Origin: Crenalkalicoccus roseus
GTDB taxonomy: Bacteria; Pseudomonadota; Alphaproteobacteria; Acetobacterales; Acetobacteraceae
Assembly: GCF_004761865.1 (NCBI RefSeq)
Contig: NZ_SJDM01000002.1
Coordinates: 228,522-292,521, forward strand
Direction of reading: 5' to 3'
DNA length: 64,000 bases
Shown here: in pieces, positions 34,881 through 41,019 of the stretch
Layout: every line of letters starts with the position of its first letter
How positions within the stretch are numbered: position 1 is the stretch's first letter
Notes under the pieces: model-generated
What the model was told of the DNA's origin: nothing
Seen by the model: the letters and a program-made list of their open reading frames with translations, nothing else
Databases searched by the model: none
Program-made: the position numbers and the translations under genes

Positions 34881-36047
34881 TCAGTAGCTCTTCGGCAGGC
34901 CGAGCACCCGCTCGGCGATGTAGCAGCAGATCAGGTTGGGGCTCACCGGGGCGATCCAGGGGATCATCGCCTCGCGCAGGAAACGCTCCACATGGTATTC
35001 CCTGGCATAGCCGAAGCCGCCATGGGTCATGATGGCGTTCTGGCACGCCTTCAGCCCGGCCTCGGCGGCAAGATACTTCGCCGCGTTCGCCTGCGCGCCG
35101 CAGTCGAGGCCCTGGTCGTAGCGCCAGGCGGCCTGCAGGCACATCAGCCACGCCGCCTCCAGCGCCATCCAGTCCTGCGCCAGCGGGTGCTGCACCGCCT
35201 GGTTCTGCCCGATCGGGCGGCCGAACACCACGCGCTCCCGCGCGTAGTCGGCGGCGCGGCGCAGCGCGGCGCGGCCGATGCCCACCGCCTCGGCGGCGAT
35301 CAGCACCCGCTCCGGGTTCAGCCCGTGCAGGATGTAGCGGAAGCCCTTGCCCTCCTCGCCGATGCGGTCCTCCTCCGGCACCTCCATGTCCTCGAAGAAG
35401 ATCTCGTTGGAGTCCACCGCCTTGCGGCCCATCTTCTCGATCTCCCGCACGCTGGCACGCGCGCGGTCGAGCCTGGTGTAGAACAGGGAGATGCCGTCGG
35501 CCGGGTTGCGGCACTGCTCGACCGGCGTGGTGCGCGCCAGCAGCAGGATGTTGTCCGCCACCTGCGCCGTGCTGATCCACACCTTCTGCCCGTTGACGAC
35601 GTAGCGGTCGCCGCGCCGCTCGGCCCGCGTCTTGAGGCGTGTGGTGTCGAGGCCGGTGGTCGGCTCGGTGACGCCGAAGCAGGCCTTCACCTCGCCGCGG
35701 GCGATCGGCGGCAGCATGCGCCGCTTCTGCTCCGGCGTGCCGTGCACCACCACCGGATGCAGGCCGAAGATGTTGAGATGCACCGCCGTCGCGCCCGACA
35801 TGCCGGCGCCCGAGGCGGCGATCGCCTCCATCATCAGCGCCGCCTCGGTGATGCCGAGGCCGGAGCCGCCATACTCCTCCGGGATGCAGATGCCGAGGTA
35901 GCCGGCCTCCGCCACGGCGCGGTGGAACTCGTGCGGGAAGCCGCCCTCGCGGTCCTTTGCCAGCCAGTAGGCGTCGTCGAAGCGGGCGCAGAGCGCGGCG
36001 ACGCCCTCGCGTATCGCCTCCTGCTCCGGTGTCAGCGCGAAATCCAT
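34881..36047 (-). CDS. Acyl-CoA dehydrogenase
   Basis: A 388-residue FAD flavoenzyme that introduces an alpha-beta double bond into an acyl-CoA. N-terminal MDFALTPEQEAIREGV, FAD-contact ACFGVTEPTTGLDT and VWISTAQVADN, central RVVFGRPIGQNQAVQHPLA, and a C-terminal QNAIMTHGGFGYAREYHVERFLRE are all as expected. The start is set at MDFALTP after a GGGGGAGG ribosome site. First gene of the minus-strand block, 109 bp from the divergent DMFase-like gene. Chain length preference not predictable. Confidence 0.95.
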   Translation of the reverse strand: MDFALTPEQEAIREGVAALCARFDDAYWLAKDREGGFPHEFHRAVAEAGYLGICIPEEYGGSGLGITEAALMMEAIAASGAGMSGATAVHLNIFGLHPVVVHGTPEQKRRMLPPIARGEVKACFGVTEPTTGLDTTRLKTRAERRGDRYVVNGQKVWISTAQVADNILLLARTTPVEQCRNPADGISLFYTRLDRARASVREIEKMGRKAVDSNEIFFEDMEVPEEDRIGEEGKGFRYILHGLNPERVLIAAEAVGIGRAALRRAADYARERVVFGRPIGQNQAVQHPLAQDWMALEAAWLMCLQAAWRYDQGLDCGAQANAAKYLAAEAGLKACQNAIMTHGGFGYAREYHVERFLREAMIPWIAPVSPNLICCYIAERVLGLPKSY

Positions 36048-36156: not shown

Positions 36157-38343
36157 ATGGTGGTGCCGCTGATCGGCTATCTCGACCGCTTCTCGGCCCG
36201 GCCGGGCGAGCGGCTGGCGGTGAAGGTCTCCTCCGCCCTCGGCGAGCCCTACGAGGCCGATCTGGTGCGCATCCGCCACGCCGACCCGAACCCGGCCGGG
36301 CCGGGGATGAAGCTGATCCCGGTGCCGGCGCCCTGGGCGGGCCGCTACCCTTCGCGTGCGCAGCCCGTGCATCGCGGTTCCTGGGGCCGGGCGGAGGGGG
36401 TGCTCGACCTCGGCGAGTCCTTCACCGTGGCGCTGCGCGTGCAGCCCTGGCTGCTGCGCGAGGCGCCGCAGACGCTGCTGGCCCTGGAAGGCCCGGGGCG
36501 GCGCCTCATCCTGCGCGTCACCGCCGGCGGGGTGGAGGCGGAGGCGGTGGCGGAAGGCGCCACGGCGCGCTGCGCCGTCGCCGCCCCGCCGGTGGCGCGG
36601 CGCTGGTACGAGGTGACGGCGACGCTGCGGGACGGGCGGCTGCGCCTGGCGCAGCGGCCGCTGCGGCCGAGCTGGGGCGCGGCGGATGCGGGCGCGGCCG
36701 AGGCCCGGCTTGCCGCCGTGCCGTGGTCGGGCCGCTTCGCCGTGACCTTCGCCGCCGAGGCTGGGCCGGACGGGACGATGCGGGGCCACCTGAACGGCCG
36801 GCTCGAGGATCCGCTGCTGCTGCGCGGCGCCGCGCCTTTCGTGCCCGTTGCGCCGGAGGCGCTGCTCGCCTCCGGCCGCCTCGCCGCCTGGTGGGATTTC
36901 CGCCGCGGCATCGAGGGCGAGGGCATCGAGGATCGCGGCCCCGCCGGGCTGCACGGGCGGCTCGTCAACCTGCCCGCCCGCGCCGTGCGCGGCAGCGCCT
37001 GGGACGGCGGCGCGCATTGCTGGCGGCACGATCCGGCGCAGTACGGCGCCATCCACTTCCACGAGGACGACCTCGAGGATTGCGGCTGGGCCACGGATTT
37101 CGAGGTGGACATCCCCGCCGACATGCCGAGCGGCGTCTATGGCGTGCGGCTGCGCGCCGGCGGGCAGTGGGACGTCATCCCCTTCTTCGTGCCGCCGCCG
37201 AGGGGCGAGGCGCGGGCGCCGATCGCGTACCTCGCTGGCACCTTCACCTACCAGGTCTATGCCAATTACCGGCGCGTCGAGCTGCCGGAGTCGCAGCTTG
37301 CGCGGCGGGCGGAATGGGGCGCCTACCCGCATTGCGGCAATCTCGACGCCGATTACGGGCTTTCCACCTACAACACCCACCCGGACGGCAGCGGCATCCA
37401 CCTCTCCTCGCGCCTGCGTCCGATCTTCAACCTGCGTCCGGGCTTCCTCGCCGTGCCGGACGAGAAGGGCTCCGGCCTGCGGCACCTGCCGGCCGACAGC
37501 CACCTGACCGACTGGCTGGAGGAGAAGGGCTTCGCCTTCGACGTCATCACCGACGAGGACCTCGACGAGGAGGGGCTGCCGCTGCTCGCGCGCTACCGCT
37601 GCGTCGTCACCGGCTCCCACCCCGAGTACCACACGCAGCGCACGCTGGACGCGCTGCAGGACTACGTGGCGCAGGGCGGGCGGCTGGCCTATCTCGGCGG
37701 CAACGGCTTCTACTGGAAGGTGGCGCGCCGCCCCGACCGGCCGCACATCCTGGAGATCCGCCGCGCCGAGGGCGGCATCCGCGCCTGGGCCGCGGAGCCC
37801 GGCGAGTACTACCACCAGCTCGACGGCACGCTCGGCGGGCTGTGGCGGCGCAACGGGCGACCGCCGCAGATGCTCTGCGGCGTCGGCTTCTCCGGCCAGG
37901 GCAAGTTCGAGGGCAGCCATTACCGCCTGCTGCCGGAGGCGGAGGACCCGCGCGTCGCCTGGATCCTGGAAGGTACCGGCCTCCGCCCGGGCGATGCCTT
38001 CGGCGGCTTCGGCCTCTCCGGCGGCGGCGCCGCGGGCTTCGAGCTGGACCGCGCCGATCCCATGCTCGGCACGCCGCCCAACGCGGTGATCCTCGCGCGC
38101 TCCGAAGGCCATCAGGAGCATTTCGTCACCGTGCCGGAGGAGCTGCTGACCCACATCACCACCGTCACCGGCGAGCCGCCCGAGGCGCTGATCCGCAGCG
38201 AGATCGTGCATTTCGAGACGCGGGGCGGCGGCGCGGTGTTCTCGGTCGGCTCCATCACCTTCTGCGGCAGCCTCTCGCACGGCGGCTACCGCAACCCGAT
38301 CTCGCGCATGCTCGAGAACGTGCTGCGCCGCTTCAGCGCCTGA
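36157..38343 (+). CDS. N,N-dimethylformamidase large-subunit family protein
   Basis: A 728-residue protein similar throughout to the large (beta) subunit of N,N-dimethylformamidase, a mononuclear-iron amidohydrolase. The start (PLIGYLDRFSARPGE, ALVRI-type DLVRIRHADPNPAGPG) and a laminin-G-like N-terminal half (about 80-300) fit. Near the centre, STYNTHPDGSG (Tyr405) and TGSHPEYHT (His488, Glu490) resemble the family's Tyr/His/Glu iron ligands; the His-x-Glu spacing is exact and the Tyr spacing close. No gene for the small DmfA1 subunit is adjacent. The natural substrate may be another small amide. PepN follows after 15 bp. Confidence 0.85.
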   Translation: MVVPLIGYLDRFSARPGERLAVKVSSALGEPYEADLVRIRHADPNPAGPGMKLIPVPAPWAGRYPSRAQPVHRGSWGRAEGVLDLGESFTVALRVQPWLLREAPQTLLALEGPGRRLILRVTAGGVEAEAVAEGATARCAVAAPPVARRWYEVTATLRDGRLRLAQRPLRPSWGAADAGAAEARLAAVPWSGRFAVTFAAEAGPDGTMRGHLNGRLEDPLLLRGAAPFVPVAPEALLASGRLAAWWDFRRGIEGEGIEDRGPAGLHGRLVNLPARAVRGSAWDGGAHCWRHDPAQYGAIHFHEDDLEDCGWATDFEVDIPADMPSGVYGVRLRAGGQWDVIPFFVPPPRGEARAPIAYLAGTFTYQVYANYRRVELPESQLARRAEWGAYPHCGNLDADYGLSTYNTHPDGSGIHLSSRLRPIFNLRPGFLAVPDEKGSGLRHLPADSHLTDWLEEKGFAFDVITDEDLDEEGLPLLARYRCVVTGSHPEYHTQRTLDALQDYVAQGGRLAYLGGNGFYWKVARRPDRPHILEIRRAEGGIRAWAAEPGEYYHQLDGTLGGLWRRNGRPPQMLCGVGFSGQGKFEGSHYRLLPEAEDPRVAWILEGTGLRPGDAFGGFGLSGGGAAGFELDRADPMLGTPPNAVILARSEGHQEHFVTVPEELLTHITTVTGEPPEALIRSEIVHFETRGGGAVFSVGSITFCGSLSHGGYRNPISRMLENVLRRFSA

Positions 38344-38358
38344 CCCATCGGATCCTCC

Positions 38359-41019
38359 ATGCCCGACACACAGCGCGACGCCTCCGCCACGCCGCAGCCC
38401 ATCCGCCGGCAGGACTACCGCCCGCCCGCCTTCCTGGTGGACACGGTGGAGCTCGTCTTCGATCTCGATCCCTCCGCCACCACCGTGCGCGCGCGGCTGG
38501 CGCTGCGGCGCAACAGGGCGCATGGCGACCTGGCGGCGCCGCTCCGCCTCGATGGCGAGGGTCTGGAACTGCTGGAGATCGCGCTGGACGGCGTGCCCCT
38601 GCCGCCGAACCGGTACCGCATCGGGCCGGACGGCGCGCTGTGCATCCCGAACGCGCCGGGCATCTGCACGCTGGAGACGCGCGTGCGGATCGCGCCGGAC
38701 CGCAACACGGAACTGTCCGGCCTCTACACCTCCGGCGGCAATTTCTACACGCAGTGCGAGGCCGAGGGCTTCCGCCGCATCACCTTCTTCCCCGACCGGC
38801 CGGACGTGATGGCGCGCTACACCGTCACCCTCATCGCCGACCGCGCGCGCTGGCCGGTGCTGCTCTCCAACGGCAACCCCGAAGGCTCCGGGGCGGCGCA
38901 GGGCGGGAAGCACTGGGTGCGCTGGGTGGATCCCCATCCCAAGCCGAGCTACCTCTTCGCCCTGGTCGCCGGCGACCTGGTGAACGTGCACGACACCTTC
39001 ACCACCCGCTCCGGCCGCCAGGTCTCTCTGAACATCTGGGTGCGGCGCGGCGACGAGCCCCGCTGCGGCCACGCCATGGAGAGCCTGAAGCGCGCCATGC
39101 GCTGGGACGAGGAGACCTTCGGACTGGAATACGACCTCGACGTGTTCAACATCGCCGCCGTCTCCGACTTCAACATGGGGGCGATGGAGAACAAGGGGCT
39201 CAACATCTTCAACACCAAATACGTTCTCGCCAGCCCGGAGACCGCCACCGACGCCGACTGGCAGGGCATCGAGACCGTGGTCTCGCACGAGTACTTCCAC
39301 AACTGGACCGGCAACCGCGTCACCTGCCGCGACTGGTTCCAGCTCTCGCTGAAGGAGGGGCTGACGGTCTTCCGCGACCAGGAATTCTCCGCCGACCAGG
39401 GCAGCCGCGCGGTGAAGCGCATCCGCGACGTGCGCGGGCTGCGCGCCGCGCAATTCCCCGAGGATGCGGGACCGATGGCGCATCCGGTGCGCCCCGACAG
39501 CTACATCGAGATCGAGAATTTCTACACCCCGACCGTCTACCAGAAGGGCGCGGAGGTGGTGCGGCTGATCCATACCCGCATCGGCGCGGCCGCCTTCCGC
39601 AAGGGGATGGACCTCTACATCGCCCGCCACGACAACCAGGCGGTGACGATCGAGGAGTTCGTCCAGGCCATGCAGGACGCATCCGGCGAGGATCTCTCCG
39701 CCTTCATGGGCTGGTATTCCCAGGCCGGCACGCCGGAAGTGACGGCCGAAGATGCCTACGACCCCGCCGCGCGCCGCTACACGCTGACGCTGCGCCAGCG
39801 CACGCCTCCGACGCCGGGACAGCCGGAGAAGCGCCCTCTTCCCATCCCCGTCGCCATGGGCCTGCTCGATCCTGCGGGCCAGGCGCTGCCGACGCGCCTC
39901 GCCGGGGAGAACGAGGCCCGCGCCGGCACGCGCATGCTGCTGCTCGACCAGGCGGAGCGGCGCTTCGTCTTCGAGGATGTCCCCGCCCCGCCCGTGCCCT
40001 CCCTGCTGCGCGGCTTCTCCGCCCCGGTGCGGCTCGGCGGCATCCCGCGCGAGCGGCTGCGCTTCCTCGCCGTGCACGACACGGACCCGTTCGTGCGCTG
40101 GGATTCCCACCAGCAATACGCGACCGCGCTGGTGCTCGACATGGTCGCGGCGCATCGCCGTGGCGAGCCGCTCGGCTTCGACCCGGCGCTGGCCGAGGCG
40201 GTGACGACCACCCTCGCCGGCGCCGATGACGACCCGGCCTTCGCCGCCGAGGTGCTCGCCCTGCCCTCGGAGGGGGTGATCGCCGACCAGATGGAGGTCG
40301 CCGACCCGGAGGCGATCCACCTCGCGCGCGAGCATCTGCGCCGCGAGATCGGCCGCCGCTGCGCCGACACCCTGCGCGCCGCCTACGAGGCGCTGACCGA
40401 CACCGGCCCCTACCGCATCGACGGGCGCGGCATCGGCCGCCGTGCCCTGCGCAACGCCTGCCTCGGCTATCTCGCCGCGGCGGGGGAGGAGGGGGTGCGC
40501 CTCGCCAAGGCGCAATTCGATGCGCAGGCGAACATGACCGACGTGCTCGCCGCCCTGTCGCTGCTCGCCGACACCGATGCGCCGGCGCGGGAGGAGGCGC
40601 TCGCCGCCTTCCACGCGCGCTGGCGCGGCGACGAGCTGGTGCTGGACAAGTGGTTCGCGATCCAGGCCATGTCCTCGCGCCCGGATACGGTCGCCGCGGT
40701 GCGCGCGCTCTACCGGCACCCGGATTTCGACCTGCGCAACCCGAACCGCGCGCGGGCGCTGATCGGGGCCTTCGCCTCCGGCAACCCGGCGCGCTTCCAC
40801 GACGCCTCCGGCGAGGGCTACCGCTTCCTGGCCGATGCGGTGATCGCGCTCGACCCGATCAACGGCGCCACCGCGGCGCGCCTCGTCTCGCCGCTCGGCC
40901 TGTGGCGCCGCCAGGCGCCGGAGCGCGCGGCGCTGATGCGGCGCGAGCTGGAGCGGATCCTGGCGCTGCCGTGCCTCAGCCGCGGCACCTTCGAGAAGGT
41001 CTCGAAGGCGCTCGCGTGA
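38359..41019 (+). CDS. pepN: Aminopeptidase N (M1 family)
   Basis: An 886-residue zinc aminopeptidase close in length to E. coli PepN (870). The exopeptidase motif MGAMENKGLNIFN precedes the zinc site HEYFH (His310, Glu311, His314), with third ligand Glu333 nineteen residues on, as in PepN. The C-terminal PepN-type helical domain extends to the end (LSRGTFEKVSKAL). It removes N-terminal residues in cytoplasmic peptide breakdown. It is probably co-transcribed with the DMFase-like gene (15 bp upstream) and the MmgE/PrpD gene (28 bp downstream). Confidence 0.97.
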   Translation: MPDTQRDASATPQPIRRQDYRPPAFLVDTVELVFDLDPSATTVRARLALRRNRAHGDLAAPLRLDGEGLELLEIALDGVPLPPNRYRIGPDGALCIPNAPGICTLETRVRIAPDRNTELSGLYTSGGNFYTQCEAEGFRRITFFPDRPDVMARYTVTLIADRARWPVLLSNGNPEGSGAAQGGKHWVRWVDPHPKPSYLFALVAGDLVNVHDTFTTRSGRQVSLNIWVRRGDEPRCGHAMESLKRAMRWDEETFGLEYDLDVFNIAAVSDFNMGAMENKGLNIFNTKYVLASPETATDADWQGIETVVSHEYFHNWTGNRVTCRDWFQLSLKEGLTVFRDQEFSADQGSRAVKRIRDVRGLRAAQFPEDAGPMAHPVRPDSYIEIENFYTPTVYQKGAEVVRLIHTRIGAAAFRKGMDLYIARHDNQAVTIEEFVQAMQDASGEDLSAFMGWYSQAGTPEVTAEDAYDPAARRYTLTLRQRTPPTPGQPEKRPLPIPVAMGLLDPAGQALPTRLAGENEARAGTRMLLLDQAERRFVFEDVPAPPVPSLLRGFSAPVRLGGIPRERLRFLAVHDTDPFVRWDSHQQYATALVLDMVAAHRRGEPLGFDPALAEAVTTTLAGADDDPAFAAEVLALPSEGVIADQMEVADPEAIHLAREHLRREIGRRCADTLRAAYEALTDTGPYRIDGRGIGRRALRNACLGYLAAAGEEGVRLAKAQFDAQANMTDVLAALSLLADTDAPAREEALAAFHARWRGDELVLDKWFAIQAMSSRPDTVAAVRALYRHPDFDLRNPNRARALIGAFASGNPARFHDASGEGYRFLADAVIALDPINGATAARLVSPLGLWRRQAPERAALMRRELERILALPCLSRGTFEKVSKALA

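Follow-up and report, generated by a model that had tools for sequence, protein, structure and literature searches.

The window analyzed here, a stretch of 64,000 nucleotides, contains a gene for a 728-residue protein resembling the large subunit of N,N-dimethylformamidase (DMFase). The initial annotation, made from the sequence alone, had located such a gene here, 15 bp before pepN and followed by a gene of the MmgE/PrpD family, with no DmfA1-like small gene adjacent to it. All of this was borne out: the open reading frame was confirmed by its Pfam match and by a full-length match to the DMFase large subunit (PDB 6lvb), its ATG agrees with the starts of homologues, and its neighbours encode an acyl-CoA dehydrogenase upstream and PepN downstream.

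34881..36047, minus strand: acyl-CoA dehydrogenase gene, divergent from the amidase gene; probable start at 36047, based on an in-frame ATG and 388-aa homologues at two related loci (L009 and L011)
36157..38343, plus strand: amidase gene, DMFase-large-subunit-like, 728 aa; ATG at 36157, stop codon ending at 38343
36979..38283, plus strand: catalytic domain DMFA2_C, residues 275-709 of the amidase (PF20254, 333.8 bits)
38359..41019, plus strand: pepN, M1 aminopeptidase N, 15 bp after the amidase stop codon
41048..42415, plus strand: MmgE/PrpD family protein, 28 bp after pepN; best solved relative 2hp3

The mechanical list of open reading frames draws the start of the dehydrogenase at 36158; the in-frame ATG at 36047 was preferred, which leaves a gap of about 110 bp between the two divergent genes. 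The nearest solved relative of PepN is Aminopeptidase N 2hpo, which we take to be the Escherichia coli enzyme, and that of the MmgE/PrpD protein is the iminodisuccinate (IDS) epimerase 2hp3 (248 bits). Gene neighbourhoods were compared for 87 loci (the best 80 of 276 amidase loci, 6 plasmid loci, and the window), with neighbouring genes defined by our own clustering of open reading frames and no gene caller; the best 80 are biased to close relatives, and several are short contigs with little flanking sequence. Since the MmgE/PrpD cluster occurs in 3 of these 87 neighbourhoods, at unrelated positions, its adjacency to the amidase gene carries little weight, and it was set aside as a pathway partner for want of a conserved position among relatives.

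The protein scores 333.8 bits against the Pfam family DMFA2_C (PF20254), for which the cut-off is 27, and is therefore a member of this family, whose description as 'beta subunit-like' is misleading for the branch described below; a search of NCBIfam returned no match. By its match to DMFase, the protein would consist of a putative Ig-like domain I, a pentraxin/laminin-G-like domain II, and a ThuA-like catalytic domain III. A sequence search of solved chains (E up to 1) retrieved five distinct sequences from two proteins, both matching over the whole length: an N-acetyl-(R)-beta-phenylalanine acylase (8huy, 8i59, and 8i5a; 678 bits, E 1.6e-202 for 8huy) and, second, the large subunit of DMFase with its mutants (434 bits, E 1.3e-128 for 6lvb). 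The same order was obtained with an AlphaFold2 model calculated from a 48-row alignment (mean pLDDT 93.1, pTM 0.92), for which Foldseek gave a TM score of 0.93 to the acylase (46% identity) versus 0.87 to the DMFase large subunit. Structure comparison aligned the model with 8huy over 713 residues (Z 57.6, rmsd 2.2 Å, 47% identity) and with 6lvb over 704 residues (Z 50.3, rmsd 2.4 Å, 35% identity); the predicted protein thus has the fold of the DMFase large subunit over its whole length. Lower-ranked fold matches were set aside for single-domain coverage or poor alignment. ThuA-like proteins such as 4jqs resemble the catalytic domain in its core (Z 15.6), a likeness of fold alone and of one domain, which has also been noted for DMFase (PMC7686228).

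The acylase is known here by its PDB names and titles and by its sequence, a literature search for a paper on N-acetyl-(R)-beta-phenylalanine acylase having found none. Its source is presumably a Burkholderia strain. It is about 15 residues longer than the window protein within the aligned part.

In DMFase from Paracoccus (DmfA1/DmfA2, PDB 6lvb), the Fe3+ ion is held by Y399, Y440, and E521, whereas H519 lies about 3.5 Å from the iron as a non-ligand whose replacement by Ala inactivates the enzyme, and N547 is a further active-site residue (PMC7686228). After the alignment numbering had been verified against these known residues, the following equivalents were read from the alignment.

37258..37260, plus strand: Tyr368, equivalent to iron ligand Y399 of DMFase
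37369..37371, plus strand: Tyr405, equivalent to iron ligand Y440 of DMFase
37618..37620, plus strand: His488, equivalent to H519 of DMFase, an essential non-ligand there
37624..37626, plus strand: Glu490, equivalent to iron ligand E521 of DMFase
37702..37704, plus strand: Asn516, equivalent to N547 of DMFase, in the active site

Residue counts were made on 116 rows, namely the tree set described below with 36 omitted loci added back, and all five positions are invariant both in the 96 single-chain rows and in the 20 rows of the DMFase side. The window protein therefore shares with DMFase the two Tyr, the Glu, the His, and the Asn in addition to the fold, and has the residue set for a putative 2-Tyr-1-Glu Fe site with its essential His. 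An iron site made of His-x-Glu and a nearby Tyr had been proposed before, with a structural overlay of Tyr405, His488, and Glu490 on DMFase as the check. These positions were correct, being by alignment those of Y440, H519, and E521; the His, however, is not an iron ligand in DMFase, and the second Tyr (Tyr368) had been missed. A His-x-Glu plus Tyr site was rejected on the strength of the ligands described for DMFase (PMC7686228).

DMFase has no activity as the large subunit alone and depends on a small subunit of 15 kDa, and the entrance to its active site lies where the two subunits meet (PMC7686228). For the window protein we found no such partner. Beside the gene there is no DmfA1-like gene and no room for one between the divergent acyl-CoA dehydrogenase gene and pepN. 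The search for a separate small subunit elsewhere in the genome, which the initial annotation had called for, was carried out on the genome of origin (99.95% complete) and returned none at E up to 10, with either of two profiles. Profile A1 was built from sequences of the Paracoccus aminophilus plasmid pAMI2 (dmfA1) and of Rhodococcus and Burkholderia vietnamiensis plasmids and, resting on three sequences, may miss diverged small subunits; profile A4 has 20 rows. As a control, A4 found the small subunit in 8 of 8 positive genomes that contribute no row to it, at E 1e-27 or better; these genomes had been flagged by A1, so this result shows that A4 works and does not speak for its reach beyond A1. 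The same profile was positive in none of five genomes with a pepN-linked amidase, the genome of origin among them. Around the 80 nearest loci (the best 80 of 276), no small-subunit-like open reading frame of at least 60 aa scored better than E 1. A small subunit fused into the amidase was also rejected, as none of the target reading frames of the 87 neighbourhoods was among the matches of profile searches run with filters off. The true matches of these searches were three small-subunit genes, which are the profile's own rows, and the residual ones (8 reading frames at E 3.7-9.8 in one search and 3 at E 1-2.2 in another, all below 9 bits) were taken as chance. Finally, DmfA1 itself was searched against the PDB, where it matched the small-subunit chain of 6lvb, 6lvc, 6lvd, 6lve, 6lvv, and 7w8j, and otherwise rows no better than chance (E 0.24 or worse). 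No DmfA1-like chain was found in the acylase entries, and with above-chance matches confined to DMFase entries, the acylase was evidently solved without such a chain.

Among 289 genomes sampled from the class, 55 encode the large-subunit domain and 27 the small subunit, all 27 within the 55; among 150 genomes sampled from the family, the corresponding numbers are 50 and 13, again with all 13 inside the larger set. The large-subunit domain thus occurs without an A1-detectable small subunit in 28/55 and 37/50 genomes, respectively. The class sample has 46 places encoding a small subunit, and each of the 30 that were fetched (L117-L146) adjoins a large-subunit gene or fragment.

In order to place the window protein, a tree of 80 rows was calculated (LG+G4, short search), comprising 44 of the best 80 loci (hand-picked for spread, with 36 omitted), 6 plasmid loci, 27 of the 29 loci from the class sample (L088 and L097 were left out), the two PDB sequences, and the window protein. 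The tree has two sides. One, with 60 rows and not a single small subunit, holds the window protein and 8huy, which fall together in a 31-row clade with an SH-aLRT of 100, inside which the position of 8huy is not resolved; the acylase sits on a long branch (0.83), unlike the window protein. The other, the DMFase side, has 20 rows, namely all 15 with a small subunit and 5 without (L052, L091, L106, L110, and L112), and the small-subunit label switches three times on the 80-row tree. The single-chain state is therefore common to a whole sampled branch of the family and not peculiar to this locus, nor is it novel, as the acylase provides a solved precedent. A missing small subunit is by itself no mark of the acylase branch, since none is detected in five rows of the DMFase side either.

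The two kinds of rows also differ in sequence at several positions, the clearest being the following.

37273..37275, plus strand: Arg373, in 96/96 single-chain rows versus 0/15 small-subunit rows
37480..37485, plus strand: Arg442-His443, in 96/96 single-chain rows versus 0/15 small-subunit rows

At position 442, the small-subunit rows usually have Trp in place of the Arg. Asn at position 406 is found in 94/96 single-chain rows versus none of the 15 small-subunit rows, where Asp is usual, and Gly at 440 in 96/96 versus 3/15. We defined R373, N406, G440, R442, and H443 as a signature in the present analysis, and it is not taken from published work. The window protein carries it in full, and 8huy is identical to it at these positions as well as at the active-site residues. 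L052, at the base of the DMFase side and without a small subunit, has N406, G440, R442, and H443 with Ser at 373, and L091 has of the signature the Arg at 442 only. In the single-chain enzymes, we infer, the signature residues close and charge the pocket and bind the carboxylate of the substrate; Arg373 is a candidate anchor, the placing of the arginines at the carboxylate being a guess.

The four remaining loci of the DMFase side that lack a small subunit (L091, L106, L110, and L112) encode large subunits with no small subunit detected in about 600 bp upstream, and in two of the four genomes concerned (G197 and G187) none was found anywhere. Their small subunit is lost, very diverged, or encoded apart.

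Two kinds of genes recur beside the single-chain amidases. pepN is directly the next gene in 14 of the 87 neighbourhoods (L002-L012, L017, L019, and the window), including all 13 relatives with at least 65% identity, which come from Acetobacteraceae or Roseomonadaceae-type loci; the ends of the two genes overlap in L004, L007, and L012, and at other loci they lie a few bases apart. In the genome of origin, pepN is the sole copy matching PF17432. Ten same-strand amidase-pepN pairs were picked by eye in the family sample (G000, G298, G311, G322, G323, G349, G397, G405, G406, and G422), several being of the same species as best-80 loci, with equal identities, and hence not independent; in one of them (G298, locus L174), the amidase is 50% identical and the genes are about 450 bp apart. 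The second recurring gene encodes a class III aminotransferase, identified with Pfam on one member and by clustering for the others, with generic class III or omega-transaminases as nearest solved relatives. It is present in 18/87 neighbourhoods, 17 of them single-chain and one two-subunit (L086). In seven, all single-chain (L013, L014, L015, L020, L022, L043, and L084), it immediately precedes the amidase gene on the same strand, and in L083 it is upstream with one gene between. An upstream aminotransferase would be expected if the product of the amidase were an amino compound. None of these seven loci belongs to the pepN-linked group of the window; among the 17, only L007 combines an aminotransferase with a pepN-linked amidase, at a distance of 7 kb. 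The window locus has no aminotransferase, its linked gene being pepN, and the eight class III aminotransferase-like matches elsewhere in its genome are not tied to the amidase gene. Transport genes of the TRAP, ABC family-5, branched-chain, and TctC types also recur across the neighbourhoods. We read the aminotransferase and transport neighbours as the pattern of a catabolic deacylase yielding an amino compound.

Taken together, these results lead us to propose, with a probability of about two in three, that the product of this gene works on its own as a mononuclear Fe(III) amidohydrolase of N-acyl amino acids, with a site of the 2-Tyr-1-carboxylate type, and that its most likely substrates are N-acetyl or N-formyl amino acids resembling beta-amino acids in shape. 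The protein is closer over its full length to 8huy than to DMFase and shares with it a clade without small subunits. The site is presumably occupied by Fe3+, and the substrate is presumably an N-acyl amino acid, with the beta type favored by kinship with the acylase. The 46-47% identity to that enzyme does not fix the substrate, and our label is acylase-like only. The earlier suggestion of a single-subunit amidase on an unknown amide therefore stands as to the single subunit; the amide is no longer a complete unknown, since an N-acyl-beta-amino-acid acylase is the nearest relative of known structure. In a mechanism like that of DMFase, Fe3+ would be held by Tyr368, Tyr405, and Glu490, and the iron would polarize the amide carbonyl and activate water for attack on the amide, with His488 as a second-sphere acid/base and Asn516 lining the site. 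Arg373 and/or Arg442 with His443 may hold the substrate carboxylate, and these three residues might take over what the small subunit contributes to the pocket in DMFase. Hydrolysis would release a free amino acid together with a carboxylate, either acetate or formate.

The conserved linkage to pepN suggests another use of the same chemistry, in which the enzyme would strip short blocked peptides of the acetyl or formyl group at their N-terminus and PepN would then finish their degradation. For the peptide-derived amide considered in the initial annotation, this linkage, kept among close relatives, counts for more than the MmgE/PrpD neighbour, whose position is not conserved. PepN needs a free alpha-amino group, and it is encoded directly downstream in every one of the 13 relatives with 65% identity or more and in a single copy in the genome. 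DMFase takes off a formyl group (PMC7686228), and the name of the acylase implies removal of an acetyl group. Further neighbours point the same way: L004, L006, L007, and L008 have an M81 metallopeptidase and a gamma-glutamyltransferase nearby, and in L019 a solute-binding protein of family 5 (oligopeptide-type) is encoded upstream. PepN is, however, a general aminopeptidase, its linkage is limited to one lineage of Roseomonadaceae-type loci, and in the next relatives out (L013-L015) it is the aminotransferase that lies upstream. The association of the amidase with PepN across the 150 family genomes is no more than moderate (33/50 versus 35/100; Fisher p 0.0005, uncorrected for genome size and relatedness), and the pocket might not be open enough to admit peptides. 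We consider peptide deblocking a possible but improbable function. A related proposal, which we put forward as speculative and rather doubtful, is that the pepN-linked group forms a functionally distinct iron deacylase, which makes N-acylated peptides (formyl or acetyl, possibly beta-linked) accessible to PepN; if true, a 2-Tyr-1-carboxylate iron enzyme would take part in peptide turnover in Roseomonadaceae.

The predicted fold and the iron-site residues are those of DMFase and would also suit a hydrolase of small formamides that has lost its small subunit. This is quite unlikely, in that the DMFase large subunit is inactive alone (PMC7686228), the single-chain branch is deep and has R442 for Trp and N406 for Asp at positions where the DMFase side is fairly uniform, and the window protein is closer to the acylase in both sequence and fold. 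As the small subunit that defines DMFase, an alpha2beta2 enzyme, was sought at the locus and in the genome and not found, we do not file the protein as a DMFase. An iron-binding protein that is catalytically idle or structural is very hard to reconcile with five active-site residues invariant in 96/96 single-chain rows and with a solved relative named as an acylase. Under the acylase-like assignment that we favor, genes annotated as 'DMFase beta subunit' that have no partner are not necessarily broken DMFases: partnerless DMFA2_C genes can belong to a large, deep, and apparently self-sufficient branch of iron amidohydrolases, and the signature residues together with the coupling to pepN provide a handle on what this branch cuts.

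Several variants of these loci were met in other genomes. Upstream of the amidase-pepN pair in L004 (5637-12178), L006, L007, and L008, the M81 (MlrC-type) metallopeptidase gene and the antisense gamma-glutamyltransferase gene are accompanied by genes for an FMN-dependent dehydrogenase and a PEP-mutase, possibly a catabolic island for peptides or N-acyl compounds. A third set of DMFA2_C proteins, in both the class and family samples (e.g. G033:C8:253353-254639), consists of short frames of about 520-655 residues with weaker matches that begin some 7-41 positions into the profile, and the N-terminal domains of these proteins may be incomplete. In L099, L101, and L103, the length of the frames hinted at N-terminal fusions, which were rejected as probable read-through frames in G+C-rich DNA, the extensions having no Pfam match. 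On the small-subunit side, five sampled genomes from two families (L118 337-1851, L206 310-1851, L207 286-1845, and also L208 and L209) have the small-subunit domain as the C-terminal part of a frame of about 505-520 residues, with the large-subunit gene directly after it. All three frames scanned have a branched-chain ABC permease as their N-terminal part (PF02653, 79-90 bits). Because an in-frame ATG follows a GGAGG stretch at the four junctions inspected, the cell may produce a free small subunit as well as the fusion, which may tie the amidase to its importer.
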